Source: an uncultured Pelagibacteraceae bacterium (GTDB lineage: Bacteria; Pseudomonadota; Alphaproteobacteria; Pelagibacterales; Pelagibacteraceae). Taken from it: a stretch of 64,000 nucleotides of DNA. The DNA lies in contig CACMQA010000003.1 of NCBI GenBank assembly GCA_902615715.1, forward strand, positions 82,001 to 146,000, written 5' to 3'. Under the pieces are notes generated by a model, which was given only the letters and a program-made list of their open reading frames with translations, did no database searches and was not told where the DNA came from. This document shows, piece by piece, positions 25,524 through 31,392 of the stretch (positions are counted from its first letter, which is position 1; every line of letters begins with the position of its first letter). Position numbers and translations under genes: made by a program.

Positions 25524-27989
25524 ATGAATAATTACTCTCAAAAGATTGTTGCACTTTTAGGTCCCACAAATACTGGGAAAACTCATGTTGCTATCGAAAA
25601 AATGTTAGAATTTGAAACAGGCATATTTGGTCTACCTTTAAGACTTCTTGCTCGGGAAGTTTATGATAAATGCGTAGATAAAGTTGGTATAGATAAAGTT
25701 GCACTAATTACTGGAGAAGAAAAAATAATTCCTAGCACTGCAAACTACTTCGTCTGCACTGTTGAGTCTATGCCTAAAGACAAAGAAGTTGATTTTATTG
25801 CTATTGATGAAATACAAATGTGTGCAGATAGAGAAAGAGGTCACATTTTTACAGAGCGATTGCTAGAGTCCCGCGGCACAAAATTGACCATGTTTTTAGG
25901 TTCTCAGGTCATGTCTAAAATTATTAAACAGTTAGTAACTAATGTAGAATTTGAAAAAAAAGAAAGATATTCAAAATTAAGTTACTCGGGAATTAAAAAA
26001 ATCTCCAGATTAGATAGGAAAGTTGCAATAATAGCTTTTTCGATTGAAGAAGTTTATGCAATAGCGGAGTTAGTAAGAAGACAAAAAGGTGGCGCGGCTG
26101 TTATCATGGGGTCTTTAAGCCCTAAAACTAGAAACTCTCAAGTTGGCTTGTATCAATCTGGTGATGTAGATTATTTAATTGCCACAGATGCAATTGGAAT
26201 GGGTTTGAATATGGATATTAATGAAATTTTTTTTTCAAACTTAAAAAAATTTGATGGGAAAAAAACTCGAAGATTAAATCTGATTGAAATGTCTCAAATA
26301 GCTGGACGGGCTGGTAGGTATAAAAATGATGGAGGATTTGGAACTACTGGAGACTGTGAAAATCTTAATTCAGATGAAATAGAAAAAATCGAAAAACATG
26401 ATTTACCTGAGACAAAAACTATTTATTGGAGAAATTCGCAATTAGACTTTAAAAGTCCAGAAAAATTAGTAAATTCACTTGAATTAAAGCCTTCTCAAAA
26501 AAATCTTTTAAGAACAAATGACTCTCTTGATGAAAGCGTATTAAGATTTTTTCTTAAAAAAGGAGCCAATAACATTATTTACCACAAAAATTTAGAATTA
26601 TTGTGGGAGTGTTGTCAAATACCTGATTTTGAAAAGAAAGCCTACGGACAACATGTAAATATAATTGATAAGGTTTTTCAATTTCTATCTACAAGAAAAA
26701 ATCGAATACCAAGCACTTTTATGAAAGAACAGCTTAAAGGCTTAGAAAGAGATCATGGAAATGTTGATTTATTATCACACAGGTTATCAAATGTGCGCAC
26801 TTGGTCTTACGTGGCAAATAAAAAAAATTGGGTAGAAAATTCAGATTATTGGGTTCAACTTACTAAAAGCATAGAAGATAAATTATCTGACAAGTTACAT
26901 GACGAACTAACTAAAAGCTTTATTGATAAAAAAATCAGTATTCTCTCTAGAAGTTTAAAGCAAGATCTTGTTTTAAATACAGAAATAAATGAAAAAAATA
27001 AAATATATATTGATGGCCAATTAGTTGGCGAACTTAAAGGTTTGAAATTTTTAATCGAAGTTACATCCAAAACACTAGATACAGATATAAAATCTATAAA
27101 AAAAGCAGCACGAAAAGGAGTTGAAAAAGAACTTATCAAAAGAGTCGATGAAATTTTAAAAACATCTGAAATCGAAATAAAAGATGAAAATAACATTGTC
27201 TGGAAGGGCAATCCAATAGCACGATTGAAGAAAGGAAATGACTATTTAAACCCAGATATTGACATAATTGCTGATGACGCATTGAATAGTGAATCAAAGC
27301 TAAAACTAATTTTATTTTTACGAAAGTGGTTAACGAACTACATTAATGAAGTACTAGGAGACTTGATTAAATTGACAAAACATAAAATTAACAATCAATA
27401 TCTTAGAGGTTTAGTATTTCAACTTTATGAGAATAATGGAGTGGTTAAAAGAAGTGATGTAGACAAAATTGTTAAATCTATTCCATTGGAAGAGAGAAAA
27501 AAATTTTGGGGAATGGGTGTTAAAATTGGTAGATATCATATTTATTTACCAAAAATGCTGAAGCCAAAAGCAGTAGAGTTTCGTATAAGTTTGTGGAAAA
27601 TATTTCATAATCTTTCAGATAAAAATAAAATACCAAAATCAGGGCTAAATTTCCTCACTGGCACTAATCTAGAAAAAAATTTTCTTTTACTATGTGGATT
27701 TGAGAAATTTAGAGATTTTTTTATAAGAATAGACATTCTTGAAAAACTGTTTTTAAAGATTTTGGAAAATACAAAAGATAAAAAGTTTAAAATTAACTCT
27801 GAAATGATGAATTTATTAGGATGTTCAAAAGAAAATTTTTACAAATTAATGAATTATATGAATTATAAAAAAGATAAAGCCGCAGATACTTACATTTTTA
27901 AAGGTGAAAAAAAGAAAAAAAAGAAAATAATACGATTTGACAAAAAAGAAAATCCATTTAATAAGCTTCTTTCTTTAAATATAAAATAA
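25524..27989 (+). CDS. SUV3-like RNA helicase (helicase-related protein)
   Basis: ALLGPTNTGKTHVAIEKML Walker A, FIAIDEIQMCADRERGHIFTERLL, TDAIGMGLNMDI, QIAGRAGRY motifs as in mitochondrial SUPV3L1. Confidence 0.9.
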   Translation: MNNYSQKIVALLGPTNTGKTHVAIEKMLEFETGIFGLPLRLLAREVYDKCVDKVGIDKVALITGEEKIIPSTANYFVCTVESMPKDKEVDFIAIDEIQMCADRERGHIFTERLLESRGTKLTMFLGSQVMSKIIKQLVTNVEFEKKERYSKLSYSGIKKISRLDRKVAIIAFSIEEVYAIAELVRRQKGGAAVIMGSLSPKTRNSQVGLYQSGDVDYLIATDAIGMGLNMDINEIFFSNLKKFDGKKTRRLNLIEMSQIAGRAGRYKNDGGFGTTGDCENLNSDEIEKIEKHDLPETKTIYWRNSQLDFKSPEKLVNSLELKPSQKNLLRTNDSLDESVLRFFLKKGANNIIYHKNLELLWECCQIPDFEKKAYGQHVNIIDKVFQFLSTRKNRIPSTFMKEQLKGLERDHGNVDLLSHRLSNVRTWSYVANKKNWVENSDYWVQLTKSIEDKLSDKLHDELTKSFIDKKISILSRSLKQDLVLNTEINEKNKIYIDGQLVGELKGLKFLIEVTSKTLDTDIKSIKKAARKGVEKELIKRVDEILKTSEIEIKDENNIVWKGNPIARLKKGNDYLNPDIDIIADDALNSESKLKLILFLRKWLTNYINEVLGDLIKLTKHKINNQYLRGLVFQLYENNGVVKRSDVDKIVKSIPLEERKKFWGMGVKIGRYHIYLPKMLKPKAVEFRISLWKIFHNLSDKNKIPKSGLNFLTGTNLEKNFLLLCGFEKFRDFFIRIDILEKLFLKILENTKDKKFKINSEMMNLLGCSKENFYKLMNYMNYKKDKAADTYIFKGEKKKKKKIIRFDKKENPFNKLLSLNIK

Positions 27990-28379
27990 ATGAGTAAATT
28001 AGACAAAAAAAGTGTAATAGGAATTTCTGCATTGCTCGTACACGCAGCTAAAATTGATGAAATGTATTCAGAGAATGAAAAGATATTAGTTAAAAATTTT
28101 ATCAAATCTTATTTAGAAGACGAAGATGAAAATGAAATCTTAAAAAAAGCTGAAGAAATAGAAAACGATTCAAATCAACTTCTTAATTATACAAATATTA
28201 TTAAGGAAAATTCAAACGATATCAAAAAGGATGTGATTGAACATCTCTGGAAGGTGGTTATCTCAGATAAGACTGTAGATCAGTACGAGTCTAATTTAAT
28301 GAGGAGAATTTGTGGTTTAATATATTTTCCTGATAAAGAATCTGCAGAAATAAAATTAAAACTTTTAAATAATCAATGA
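27990..28379 (+). CDS. TerB family (tellurite resistance-like) protein
   Basis: [25 protein letters not shown] and [28 protein letters not shown]; TerB-like helical protein. Confidence 0.75.
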
Positions 28380-28717
28380 CCTATATTGTAAAAGATGAAT
28401 GTATAAAATGTAAGCTGACAGACTGTGTAGAAGTTTGTCCGGTTGATTGCTTTTACGAAGGTGAAAATTTTTTAGCAATTAATCCAGATGAATGTATAGA
28501 TTGTGGAGTTTGTGAACCTGAATGTCCTATAGACGCAATCAAAGCTGATACAGATGAAAGTGTAAAGGACATGGAAAAATGGTTATTGATAAATAAAAAG
28601 TATTCTGCAATATGGCCTAATATATCAAAAAAGCAGGATCCAATGAAAGATCATGAAAAATTTAGAGAAATTAAAAATAAATATGATAAACACTTTTCTG
28701 AAAAACCAGGGAAATAG
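28376..28717 (+). CDS. fdxA: Ferredoxin, FdxA type (7Fe)
   Basis: [47 protein letters not shown]. Confidence 0.95.
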
Positions 28718-28719
28718 AT

Positions 28720-29385
28720 ATGCCAAAAAAGAAAAAAGCTAAAAAAGTTAAAAAAATAAAAAAAACAAACTCATTAAGAAAAACAAAAATAACTTCAAAA
28801 CCGACTCCAAAAAAAAGCAATATTCCTGGGCCTGACGAAAAACCAGAAATTAAAAAAATTAAAAAACAACCAACGGAAAAAAGAATTTATAACTTAAAAG
28901 ATTTTGTTGTTTATCCAAAACATGGAGTAGGAAAAATAACTGCTATTGAGAAAGCCAAAATTGGTGAAATTGATATTCAATTTTATAAAATATTAGTTGA
29001 AAAAGAAAAACTAACATTAACTGTTCCAATAAATCAACAATCTAAACTAAGACCTATTTCGTCTTTAAATCAAATAAACAAATGTATCTCAATTTTGAAA
29101 ACAAAACCTAAAATAAAAAGAACTATGTGGAGTAGAAGAGCTCAGGAATATGATCAGAAAATTAACTCAGGTAAAATTTATGAGTTAGCTGAGGTTGTGA
29201 AAGATCTTAATAAAAATACTGATATAATCGCTGATCAATCATACTCTGAAAGACAATTATTTGAAAAAGCATATGAAAGATTAAAATCAGAATTTGAGGC
29301 TGTGCTCAAAACTAGTCCAGAAGAAGTACAAAAAAAGATGGATAAAGCTTTAGGTAGGACAAATATTTCAGATAACGCGGAATAA
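28720..29385 (+). CDS. carD: CarD family transcriptional regulator
   Basis: Lys-rich N-terminus then FVVYPKHGVGKITAIEKAKIG...LTVPINQQSKLRPIS, MWSRRAQEYDQKINSG typical of CarD. Confidence 0.92.
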   Translation: MPKKKKAKKVKKIKKTNSLRKTKITSKPTPKKSNIPGPDEKPEIKKIKKQPTEKRIYNLKDFVVYPKHGVGKITAIEKAKIGEIDIQFYKILVEKEKLTLTVPINQQSKLRPISSLNQINKCISILKTKPKIKRTMWSRRAQEYDQKINSGKIYELAEVVKDLNKNTDIIADQSYSERQLFEKAYERLKSEFEAVLKTSPEEVQKKMDKALGRTNISDNAE

Positions 29386-29424
29386 AAAACGCCCTCTTTA
29401 AAAATTATTTTAAAAAGGGCGTTT
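29384..29424 (-). terminator. Intrinsic terminator for the 22-aa gene (shared with convergent carD)
   Basis: On minus strand AAACGCCCTTTTTAAAA-TAAT-TTTTAAAGAGGGCGTTTTTTATT. Confidence 0.85.
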
Positions 29425-29438
29425 AGTAAAAGAGAAAA

Positions 29439-29507
29439 CTATCTTCTTTTTCTTCTTCTCTTTTTAGCTTTTTTCTTTTTCTTAGCTTTTTTTCTTCTTT
29501 TAGCCAT
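29439..29507 (-). CDS. 22-aa hyperbasic peptide (Lys/Arg/Ala only)
   Basis: ATG GCT AAA AGA AGA ... AGA AGA TAG = MAKRRKKAKKKKKAKKRRRKRR; SD GGGAG 5 nt upstream; own promoter-like sequence and terminator. Confidence 0.8.
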   Translation of the reverse strand: MAKRRKKAKKKKKAKKRRRKRR

Positions 29508-29520
29508 CTTTTCTCCCTGG

Positions 29521-29553
29521 TTAATAAACAAATCTTAATGATTCGTTTGTTAA
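29521..29553 (-). promoter_or_regulatory. 5' leader hairpin of the 22-aa gene
   Basis: Minus-strand TTAACAAACGAATC-ATTAA-GATTTGTTTATTAA: 14-bp stem with one mismatch and one G-U, ending directly upstream of the SD. Confidence 0.6.
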
Positions 29554-29557
29554 TTAA

Positions 29558-29585
29558 ACATTAGTTATTAAAAGATTCATGTCAA
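29558..29585 (-). promoter_or_regulatory. Sigma70-like promoter of the 22-aa gene
   Basis: Minus-strand TTGACA (29585-29580), 16-nt spacer, TAATGT (29563-29558). Confidence 0.6.
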
Positions 29586-29715: not shown

Positions 29716-31392
29716 TTAATAAAGATTTTCTAATTGTTGTTTATAATTTTTAATTATTTCTTTTCTTTTTAACTTTAAAGTTGGTGTTAACATTCCGTTT
29801 TCAATTGTAAATTCTTTATGAATTAAAACAAATTTTTTTATTTTTTCTATTAAAGTTAAACTTTTATTTATATTTTCAATTGTAAGTTTAATTTTTTCTT
29901 TATTAATTTCTTTTTCTGTAACTAATATTGCAACTAAATAATTTTTTTTATCTCCATAAACCAAAGATTGTTTAATATTTTCATCTAAACATAAAATATT
30001 TTCAATTTTACTTGGTGAAATGTTGTCACCTCCTAAATTGACTATAATATCTTTTTTTCTGTCTGTTATTTTTAGATAATTATTTTGATCTAACTCACCA
30101 ATATCTCCGGTATATAACCATCCATCTTTAATTACTTTTTCAGTTTCTTCTTTAAGATTCCAATAACCCAACATCACATTTTCACCCTTTATTAAGATTT
30201 CACCATCCCCTGCTATTTTAACTTTATTAGTTCTAAATGGAGGACCGACTGATTCGACTTTGACTAAATCTGGCAAATTACAGCTTACGACAGGAGAAGC
30301 CTCTGTAAGACCGTAACCTTGCAAAGTAGGTAATCCTATAGCATTTAAAAATTCACCAATATTTTGATCTAAAGCTCCACCCCCAGAAACGAAGGCTTGC
30401 AGATTTCCGCCAAATTGATTTCTGATTTTTTTTCGCACTAATTTTTCACATAAAAAATTTACTATTTTTTCACTAAGACTTAATTGCTCTTTTTTAAGTA
30501 TTTTTTTTCCTAATTCTAAAGTTCGATTAATTAATTTTTTTTTAAGACCTATTTGTTTGTCAAAATTCATATTTATTTTAGTAAAAAGGTTTTGATAAAA
30601 CCTTGGAACAGCTGTCATGATGGTGGGTTTAGCGACTCCCATATTTGAAATTAATTTTTCTAAACTTTCAGCGTAGAAAACTTTTGCACCTACAATTATT
30701 TGTATAAATTGAACTGTGTGTTCATATGAATGTGATAGAGGTAACCAAGTTAAAAACACAGGTTCTTTTTTTTTAGTTAAAGTTTCAAGCAATTCTACTG
30801 CTCCTTCGCAGTTCGATAAAATACCACCATGACTTAAAATAACACCTTTAGGATTTCCTGAAGTTCCCGATGTGTAAATTATACATGCAGGCATATTTCT
30901 CTTTAATTTGTTATTAATCTCTTTTTTATAATTTTCTTCTTCTATAATTTTTTTAATTAATAAGCTGTCAGTATCTATCTCTTCAAAAGAGATTATTTTT
31001 TGCTCATTTGTGTTTATGTGATTTTTAATCTTTTTAAATTGATCATTATTTGAAACTAAAATTAATGATGGCTTACAATCATTTAAAATATACTCATAAT
31101 CATTTGATGAATATGTTGTAAAAATAGGAACCGATATTCCTCCTGCATTCATTACAGCAATATCTGCCATTAACCAATAAGGTCTATTTTCTGATAATAT
31201 TAAACAACGATCTCCTTCTTTAATTAAAGATTTTATTTTTGATGAAAGTTTAAAAATTCTCTCTTTAATATCGCCCCAGCTGTAAGTTGGTTTTCCTGGT
31301 TTTAACCATTTTAAAAAAGGTCTGTTGGGATCAACCTCTTCGCACTTTTTAAAGTATAATTCTACAAGACTATTAAGTTTATCTATTTCCAT
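29716..31392 (-). CDS. AMP-dependent long-chain acyl-CoA synthetase
   Basis: IIYTSGTSGNPKGVILSHGGIL, QGYGLTEASPVVS, YTGDIGELDQNNYLKITDRKKDIIVNLGGDNISPSKIE. Confidence 0.93.
   Translation of the reverse strand: MEIDKLNSLVELYFKKCEEVDPNRPFLKWLKPGKPTYSWGDIKERIFKLSSKIKSLIKEGDRCLILSENRPYWLMADIAVMNAGGISVPIFTTYSSNDYEYILNDCKPSLILVSNNDQFKKIKNHINTNEQKIISFEEIDTDSLLIKKIIEEENYKKEINNKLKRNMPACIIYTSGTSGNPKGVILSHGGILSNCEGAVELLETLTKKKEPVFLTWLPLSHSYEHTVQFIQIIVGAKVFYAESLEKLISNMGVAKPTIMTAVPRFYQNLFTKINMNFDKQIGLKKKLINRTLELGKKILKKEQLSLSEKIVNFLCEKLVRKKIRNQFGGNLQAFVSGGGALDQNIGEFLNAIGLPTLQGYGLTEASPVVSCNLPDLVKVESVGPPFRTNKVKIAGDGEILIKGENVMLGYWNLKEETEKVIKDGWLYTGDIGELDQNNYLKITDRKKDIIVNLGGDNISPSKIENILCLDENIKQSLVYGDKKNYLVAILVTEKEINKEKIKLTIENINKSLTLIEKIKKFVLIHKEFTIENGMLTPTLKLKRKEIIKNYKQQLENLY

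Follow-up and report, generated by a model that had tools for sequence, protein, structure and literature searches.

The window analysed here is a stretch of 64,000 nucleotides from an uncultured bacterium of the family Pelagibacteraceae (contig CACMQA010000003.1, positions 82,001 to 146,000), a member of SAR11 whose genome (1.06 Mb in 14 contigs) has a GC content of ~30% and is rich in AAA and AGA. It contains, between two larger genes, a very short hyperbasic ORF on the minus strand (Table 1). One of these genes, located upstream of the ORF, is taken by us to be acyl-CoA synthetase-like (a name derived from its sequence and from the initial annotation) and serves as a place marker only. The other is carD, whose product carries a lysine-rich N-terminal tail. 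The encoded 22-aa peptide comprises 11 lysine, 7 arginine and 3 alanine residues (82% Lys plus Arg), ends with RRRKRR and has a predicted charge of ~ +17.5 at pH 7. The ORF is described as unannotated for the sole reason that it has no Pfam or NCBIfam family.

Table 1. Features of the carD-proximal locus (positions within the window)
Feature	Position	Strand	Remarks
carD (domains CarD_TRCF_RID and CarD_C; lysine-rich N-terminal tail)	28720..29385	+	Convergent neighbour, marks the conserved place
Intrinsic terminator AAACGCCCTTTTTAAAATAATTTTTAAAGAGGGCGTTTTTT	29384..29424	-	T-tract on the peptide strand; kept in relatives with other stem sequences
Hyperbasic ORF, 22 aa, MAKRRKKAKKKKKAKKRRRKRR, stop codon TAG	29439..29507	-	Conserved in all Pelagibacterales loci reaching this place; coding signature
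Shine-Dalgarno region (CA)GGGAG-AAAAG before ATG	29508..29518	-	AAGGGAGAAAAG nearly invariant in the genus
5'-leader hairpin AACAAACGAATC-ATTAA-GATTTGTTTATTAA	29521..29551	-	Inverted repeat, conserved in both families
Candidate promoter TTGACA-N16-TAATGT	29558..29585	-	Perfect TTGACA, weak -10
Acyl-CoA synthetase-like gene (presumed)	29716..31392	-	Upstream of the peptide ORF; place marker only

Organisation of the locus

Most elements of the initial annotation were borne out by our analysis, namely a peptide built only of Lys, Arg and Ala after the initial Met, with 18 of 22 residues basic, the GGGAG motif 5 nt before the ATG, a leader hairpin ending just before the Shine-Dalgarno (SD) sequence, an intrinsic terminator with a long T-tract on the peptide strand, and convergence with a carD gene encoding a Lys-rich N-terminus. 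Its promoter needs qualification: the TTGACA hexamer is perfect and is kept in relatives, but the proposed -10 hexamer TAATGT agrees with the consensus at only 3 of 6 bases, and a promoter scan did not list the candidate. The promoter call therefore relies on TTGACA and its conservation. This hexamer was present in all 108 upstream regions inspected, in a scan which tolerated the variant TTGACT found in g2 and one g4 genome.

The leader inverted repeat consists of 9 bp plus a further 4 bp across a C.A mismatch. The ACGAATCA hairpin is conserved 39-42 nt beyond the promoter (the distance from TTGAC to CGAATC in all upstream regions), and in 24 aligned leaders covering both families of the order in which it occurs the motif CGAATCA is invariant, its distance from TTGACA being fixed. 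A hairpin at the CGAATC site is folded by all 75 distinct leaders (mean z = -3.65; 74 below -2). For its 3' arm, g3 and the genus of the window have GATTYG, part of the sister family (f2) has GTGATTC, and g4 and g5 have a sequence of the TTTAAGTGA type; since the 5' arm stays fixed while the 3' arm differs, the two arms pair in different registers. The leaders of g2 and g5 contain a CUCC that is able to base-pair with the SD motif GGAG, an arrangement compatible with translational control, and in those of f2 CCUC or CCC precedes the G-rich SD (L087, L088, L118, L124 and L127-L135 for the three groups together). These leaders suggest a translational switch that may have been lost or simplified in the genus of the window.

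The terminator was the sole one detected in a 1.2-kb scan (0.2 expected), and its stems differ in other genera (e.g. CGCTTCTCAT...GTGTGAGAAGCG). The predicted transcript folds far more stably than its shuffled versions (z = -6.3), owing to the two terminal hairpins. An Rfam search of the unit gave sub-threshold matches only, most of them at the terminator, and a published screen for structured RNAs in Pelagibacter (PMC2704228) does not mention carD, nor does its table of intergenic regions include this gap. A regulon sharing the CGAATC hairpin was considered and rejected, as the motif is single-copy in the window's genome and in four of the five g3 genomes tested; in the fifth, G013, a second CGAATC-N3-GATTTG site occurs elsewhere than in the peptide leader (G013:C1:985958-985972).

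Ahead of the peptide ORF, a conserved run of plus-strand genes (25524-29385) encodes a large DEAD/SUV3-like helicase, a 129-aa TerB-like protein, a 113-aa 7Fe-type ferredoxin (these three names were assigned by eye) and CarD. The CarD protein is 221 aa long in the window and about 270-290 aa in the sister family, with open frames of up to 315 aa in g3; the length of its Lys-rich tail varies over the order, broadly in parallel with that of the neighbouring peptide (window and carD of L115-L135). The peptide is tied to CarD by adjacency, and a functional connection between the two is putative.

Distribution and coding capacity

A carD search of GTDB genomes revealed a hyperbasic ORF immediately downstream of carD, on the other strand, at 76 of 80 Pelagibacteraceae loci, and at the remaining four the contig ends before the place of the ORF. 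The peptides encoded at these 76 loci are 21-25 aa long and all start with MAKRR. In a second search, the ORF was found in 23/23 Pelagibacterales genomes in which carD could be found, representing 10 genera and two families. Four genomes of the same genus lacked the pattern; carD was not detected in them either, so the missing pattern is consistent with an assembly gap at this place. The exact pattern proved too strict for the longer g3 forms and missed many g3 genomes, which were recovered by the carD-anchored search.

The 209-nt gap upstream of the peptide start has a GC content of only 14.8%, and 21 of the 80 carD loci, nearly all from single-cell or MAG assemblies of SAR11, break off within the 200 nt preceding the peptide start codon or immediately ahead of the gene (L002, L004, L015, L021, L029, L033-L038, L040, L041, L047, L048, L053, L060, L063, L066, L070 and L074). 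The hairpin together with the extreme AT content of the gap probably breaks assemblies, which makes carD-based calls of absence unreliable. Contig CACNAY010000020.1 (11.5 kb) carries the same carD region at both ends in opposite orientation (L037, 1-4736; L038, 6784-11519), and this palindromic arrangement looks like a chimera, produced by single-cell amplification or by assembly, that ends at the peptide leader.

Outside the order, the peptide unit was not found in ~237 other Alphaproteobacteria, and no convergent hyperbasic gene was present beside carD at 22 other alphaproteobacterial loci. Exact-pattern scans of about 240-290 genomes of the class placed the unit in Pelagibacterales only, although diverged forms would escape such patterns; the exact-pattern matches to the promoter-leader outside Pelagibacterales had no hyperbasic ORF behind them. 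The N-terminal motif of the sister family was absent from 289 class genomes, a sample holding no genome of that family. A phage or mobile origin was rejected, as no match was obtained in phages or viral contigs. Our survey of the literature on SAR11 small ORFs, nucleoid proteins and TSS data yielded nothing on this gene.

The coding potential was examined using 65 distinct nucleotide versions encoding 47 distinct peptides of 21-50 aa, compared along a minimum-spanning tree; as g1 loci are related, locus counts are not independent, an effect which this comparison lowers but does not remove. Frame, start codon, SD and codon signature are kept in the relatives, with neither frameshifts nor stops within the ORF, and versions of different length differ by whole codons. 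Synonymous differences outnumbered non-synonymous ones (47 vs 37 codon differences; expected synonymous share ~24%; p about 4e-10), and 35 of the 37 replacements stayed within Lys, Arg, Ala and Thr (2/37 leaving this set vs about 67% expected; p about 3e-15). Single transitions from AAA (57 in total) led to AAG in 31 cases, to AGA in 26 and never to GAA (p about 1e-10), an absence which is independent of the transition rate. Over the 47 peptides the residues were K 615, R 303, A 200, T 31, P 11, S 4, G 3 and V 1. The codon-level test proposed with the initial annotation returned a clear coding signature, and promoter and terminator, whose conservation it had also suggested checking, are kept across two families, as are leader and SD. 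On this comparative evidence, the hyperbasic ORF represents a genuine gene, equipped with a predicted promoter, a leader hairpin and a terminator.

From 21 to 91 residues

The corresponding place in f2, the sister family, is occupied by genes for proteins of 76-91 aa with AAPKKK repeats, which resemble histone H1 tails (e.g. MEELKVIFAKARKKAKKKAAPKKK... and MEELKVIFAKARKKAKKKAAPKKKRKAAKRKPAKKK...). The f2 and Pelagibacteraceae units have in common the TTGACA hexamer, the ACGAATCA hairpin, a G-rich SD, the terminator and the place itself. The histone-tail comparison made in the initial annotation is strengthened by these orthologues, which share promoter and hairpin with the window unit. Within Pelagibacteraceae the peptides are 37-50 aa long in g5, 36-38 aa in g2, 31 aa in g4, mostly 21-35 aa in g3 and 21-25 aa in g1, g6 and g7; the genus of the window has 21-25 aa, and the other genera of the family have up to 50 aa. 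A g5 form of 50 aa with APAKKK motifs bridges the 22-aa and f2 forms. The ends of the peptide are conserved (N-terminal M(A/P)K(K/R)RKKA and a C-terminal basic cluster), while the middle drifts freely. Such retention of composition over a drift in length from 21 to 91 aa is expected of a disordered polycation and not of a folded or rRNA-fitted protein.

Judged by these shared features, the window 22-mer represents the shortest version of a gene which in f2 encodes a predicted H1-tail-like protein of 76-91 aa. The shorter forms appear to descend from an H1-like ancestor that was progressively shortened as part of these streamlined genomes. This direction is consistent with the data but not proven, because in the CarD tree, which places g2/g5 and g4 outside g1+g3+g7, several key forks fall below strong support and long branches meet. 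The broader proposition, that all SAR11 bacteria carry a stripped-down histone tail, i.e. a nucleoid protein shortened within the order from about 90 to 21 residues with its promoter, hairpin and terminator retained, is possible, although we hesitate to call it probable.

Possible role of the peptide and its relation to known proteins

The peptide is probably a tiny nucleic-acid-binding protein. Length and residue order drift but the composition does not, neither a hydrophobic core nor a partner gene is present, and the orthologues are H1-tail-like, all of which fits an unstructured polycation acting on nucleic acid. We consider it somewhat more probable than otherwise that this stand-alone, order-wide SAR11 gene specifies a disordered Lys/Arg polycation, similar to an H1 tail or a protamine, which compacts chromosomal DNA alongside HU. 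A transcript of ~170 nt, with one hairpin near its 5' start and the terminator hairpin at its 3' end, would be translated into a very short, almost pure Lys/Arg peptide. This unstructured polycation would act like a detached histone-H1 tail or protamine, binding nucleic acid without sequence preference through charge neutralisation, and would most likely neutralise and compact chromosomal DNA in the company of HU. We infer expression, disorder, nucleic-acid binding and DNA over RNA as the main partner; the nucleoid is the most likely site of action and RNA or the ribosome comes second, as the length freedom (21-91 aa) argues against a fixed rRNA pocket. Several facts count against this reading. 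Neither chlamydial Hc1/Hc2 nor any other family model was matched (see below), the window's genome already has three HU/IHF-family genes, so that the peptide would be an accessory factor, and conserved leader hairpins, here accompanied in some genera by the SD-pairing CUCC, are often found at ribosomal-protein genes.

It is also worth weighing whether the gene encodes a lineage-specific ribosome-associated microprotein like bTHX, bS22 or bL37, filling a negatively charged pocket of rRNA, which we regard as unlikely. Small size, a single copy, order-wide conservation, the conserved N-terminal motif and C-terminal basic cluster and a structured leader of its own would all agree with it; however, proteins of this kind keep their sequence to fit rRNA, whereas the SAR11 peptides show a more than fourfold range of length and a free middle, and match neither ribosomal-protein models nor solved-ribosome sequences. 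With cut-offs of E up to 10 for the 22-mer and up to 1 for the long forms, no Pfam or NCBIfam family was hit, models of chlamydial Hc1/Hc2 and other H1-like proteins included, and PDB sequences, with the chains of solved ribosomes among them, contained no relative (one match to L29 was at chance level, E = 0.52). The peptide can therefore be filed in no H1-like or ribosomal family, although these negative results are weak because family models and BLAST-type searches perform poorly on low-complexity sequences.

Less probable still is that the peptide serves as a general counter-ion, or as a partner of RNA or polyphosphate, and not mainly as a DNA compactor. Any polyanion would attract a pure polycation, and we list this role because AlgP, an H1-like protein with KPAA repeats, is a DNA binder that is also associated with polyphosphate granules (PMC9239181), but no finding of this study indicates polyphosphate or a particular RNA. 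A short structured sRNA with an incidental ORF, suggested by the two strong hairpins and the folding of transcript and leaders, is very improbable: an RNA-only function is largely refuted by the codon signature, and whole-codon indels, the synonymous excess, the conserved SD and start, and the far longer ORFs of the sister family also speak against it. Equally improbable is a secreted or antimicrobial cationic peptide, since this short and cationic product lacks hydrophobic and amphipathic residues as well as a signal peptide, has no export or immunity gene alongside, and is universal in the order. That the ORF is a by-product of purine- and AT-rich sequence between convergent genes, as a genome rich in AAA and AGA might allow, is refuted by its conservation across two families, its coding signature, the lack of a comparable ORF elsewhere in the window, and the fact that 30 order-3 Markov copies of the window contained no ORF with a length of ≥20 aa and a Lys plus Arg content of ≥75%.

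SAR11 bacteria are among the most abundant in the sea and their genomes are streamlined. All members checked nevertheless retain this small gene, rich in nitrogen and furnished with regulatory elements of its own, which indicates that it probably matters. If the nucleoid role is correct, few known nucleoid-associated proteins would be as small as the form of 21-25 aa, which would be a naturally minimal polycation for packing DNA. The orthologous polycations of 21 to 91 aa provide a natural length series with which to ask how small a protein may still compact or organise the chromosome of a bacterium. This case also shows that conserved genes of ~20 codons may be absent from the gene catalogues of the most abundant ocean bacteria; trypsin would cut this peptide at nearly every residue, making it hard to see in standard proteomics.

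Among known proteins, the ribosomal microproteins bTHX, bS22/SRA and bL37 (about 20-35 aa) are, like the SAR11 peptide, small, very basic, encoded by a single gene and easily missed by annotation, but the SAR11 family spans 21-91 aa and was matched by no family model or solved sequence. With protamines and protamine-like peptides the window 22-mer shares its very short length, overwhelmingly basic content and Arg clusters, a likeness of composition, whereas it occurs in free-living bacteria and is rich in Lys as well. The bacterial H1-tail-like proteins (chlamydial Hc1/Hc2 and the C-terminal tails of Pseudomonas AlgP and PhaF) are likewise low-complexity Lys/Ala/Pro-rich polycations of variable length, and in both Hc2 (PMC2848022) and AlgP (PMC9239181) the length varies with the number of repeats. 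The SAR11 peptides differ from them in lacking an N-terminal folded domain (the helical domain of AlgP/PhaF type is missing from the 21-50 aa forms, and f2 has just MEELKVIFA) and in having a promoter, leader and terminator of their own; the window form, at 22 aa, contains neither Pro nor repeats and matches no Pfam family. The Lys/Ala/Pro-rich repetitive tail is present partly in the 50-aa form and fully in the orthologues of 76-91 aa, and it is these f2 proteins that resemble the H1-tail-like group most.
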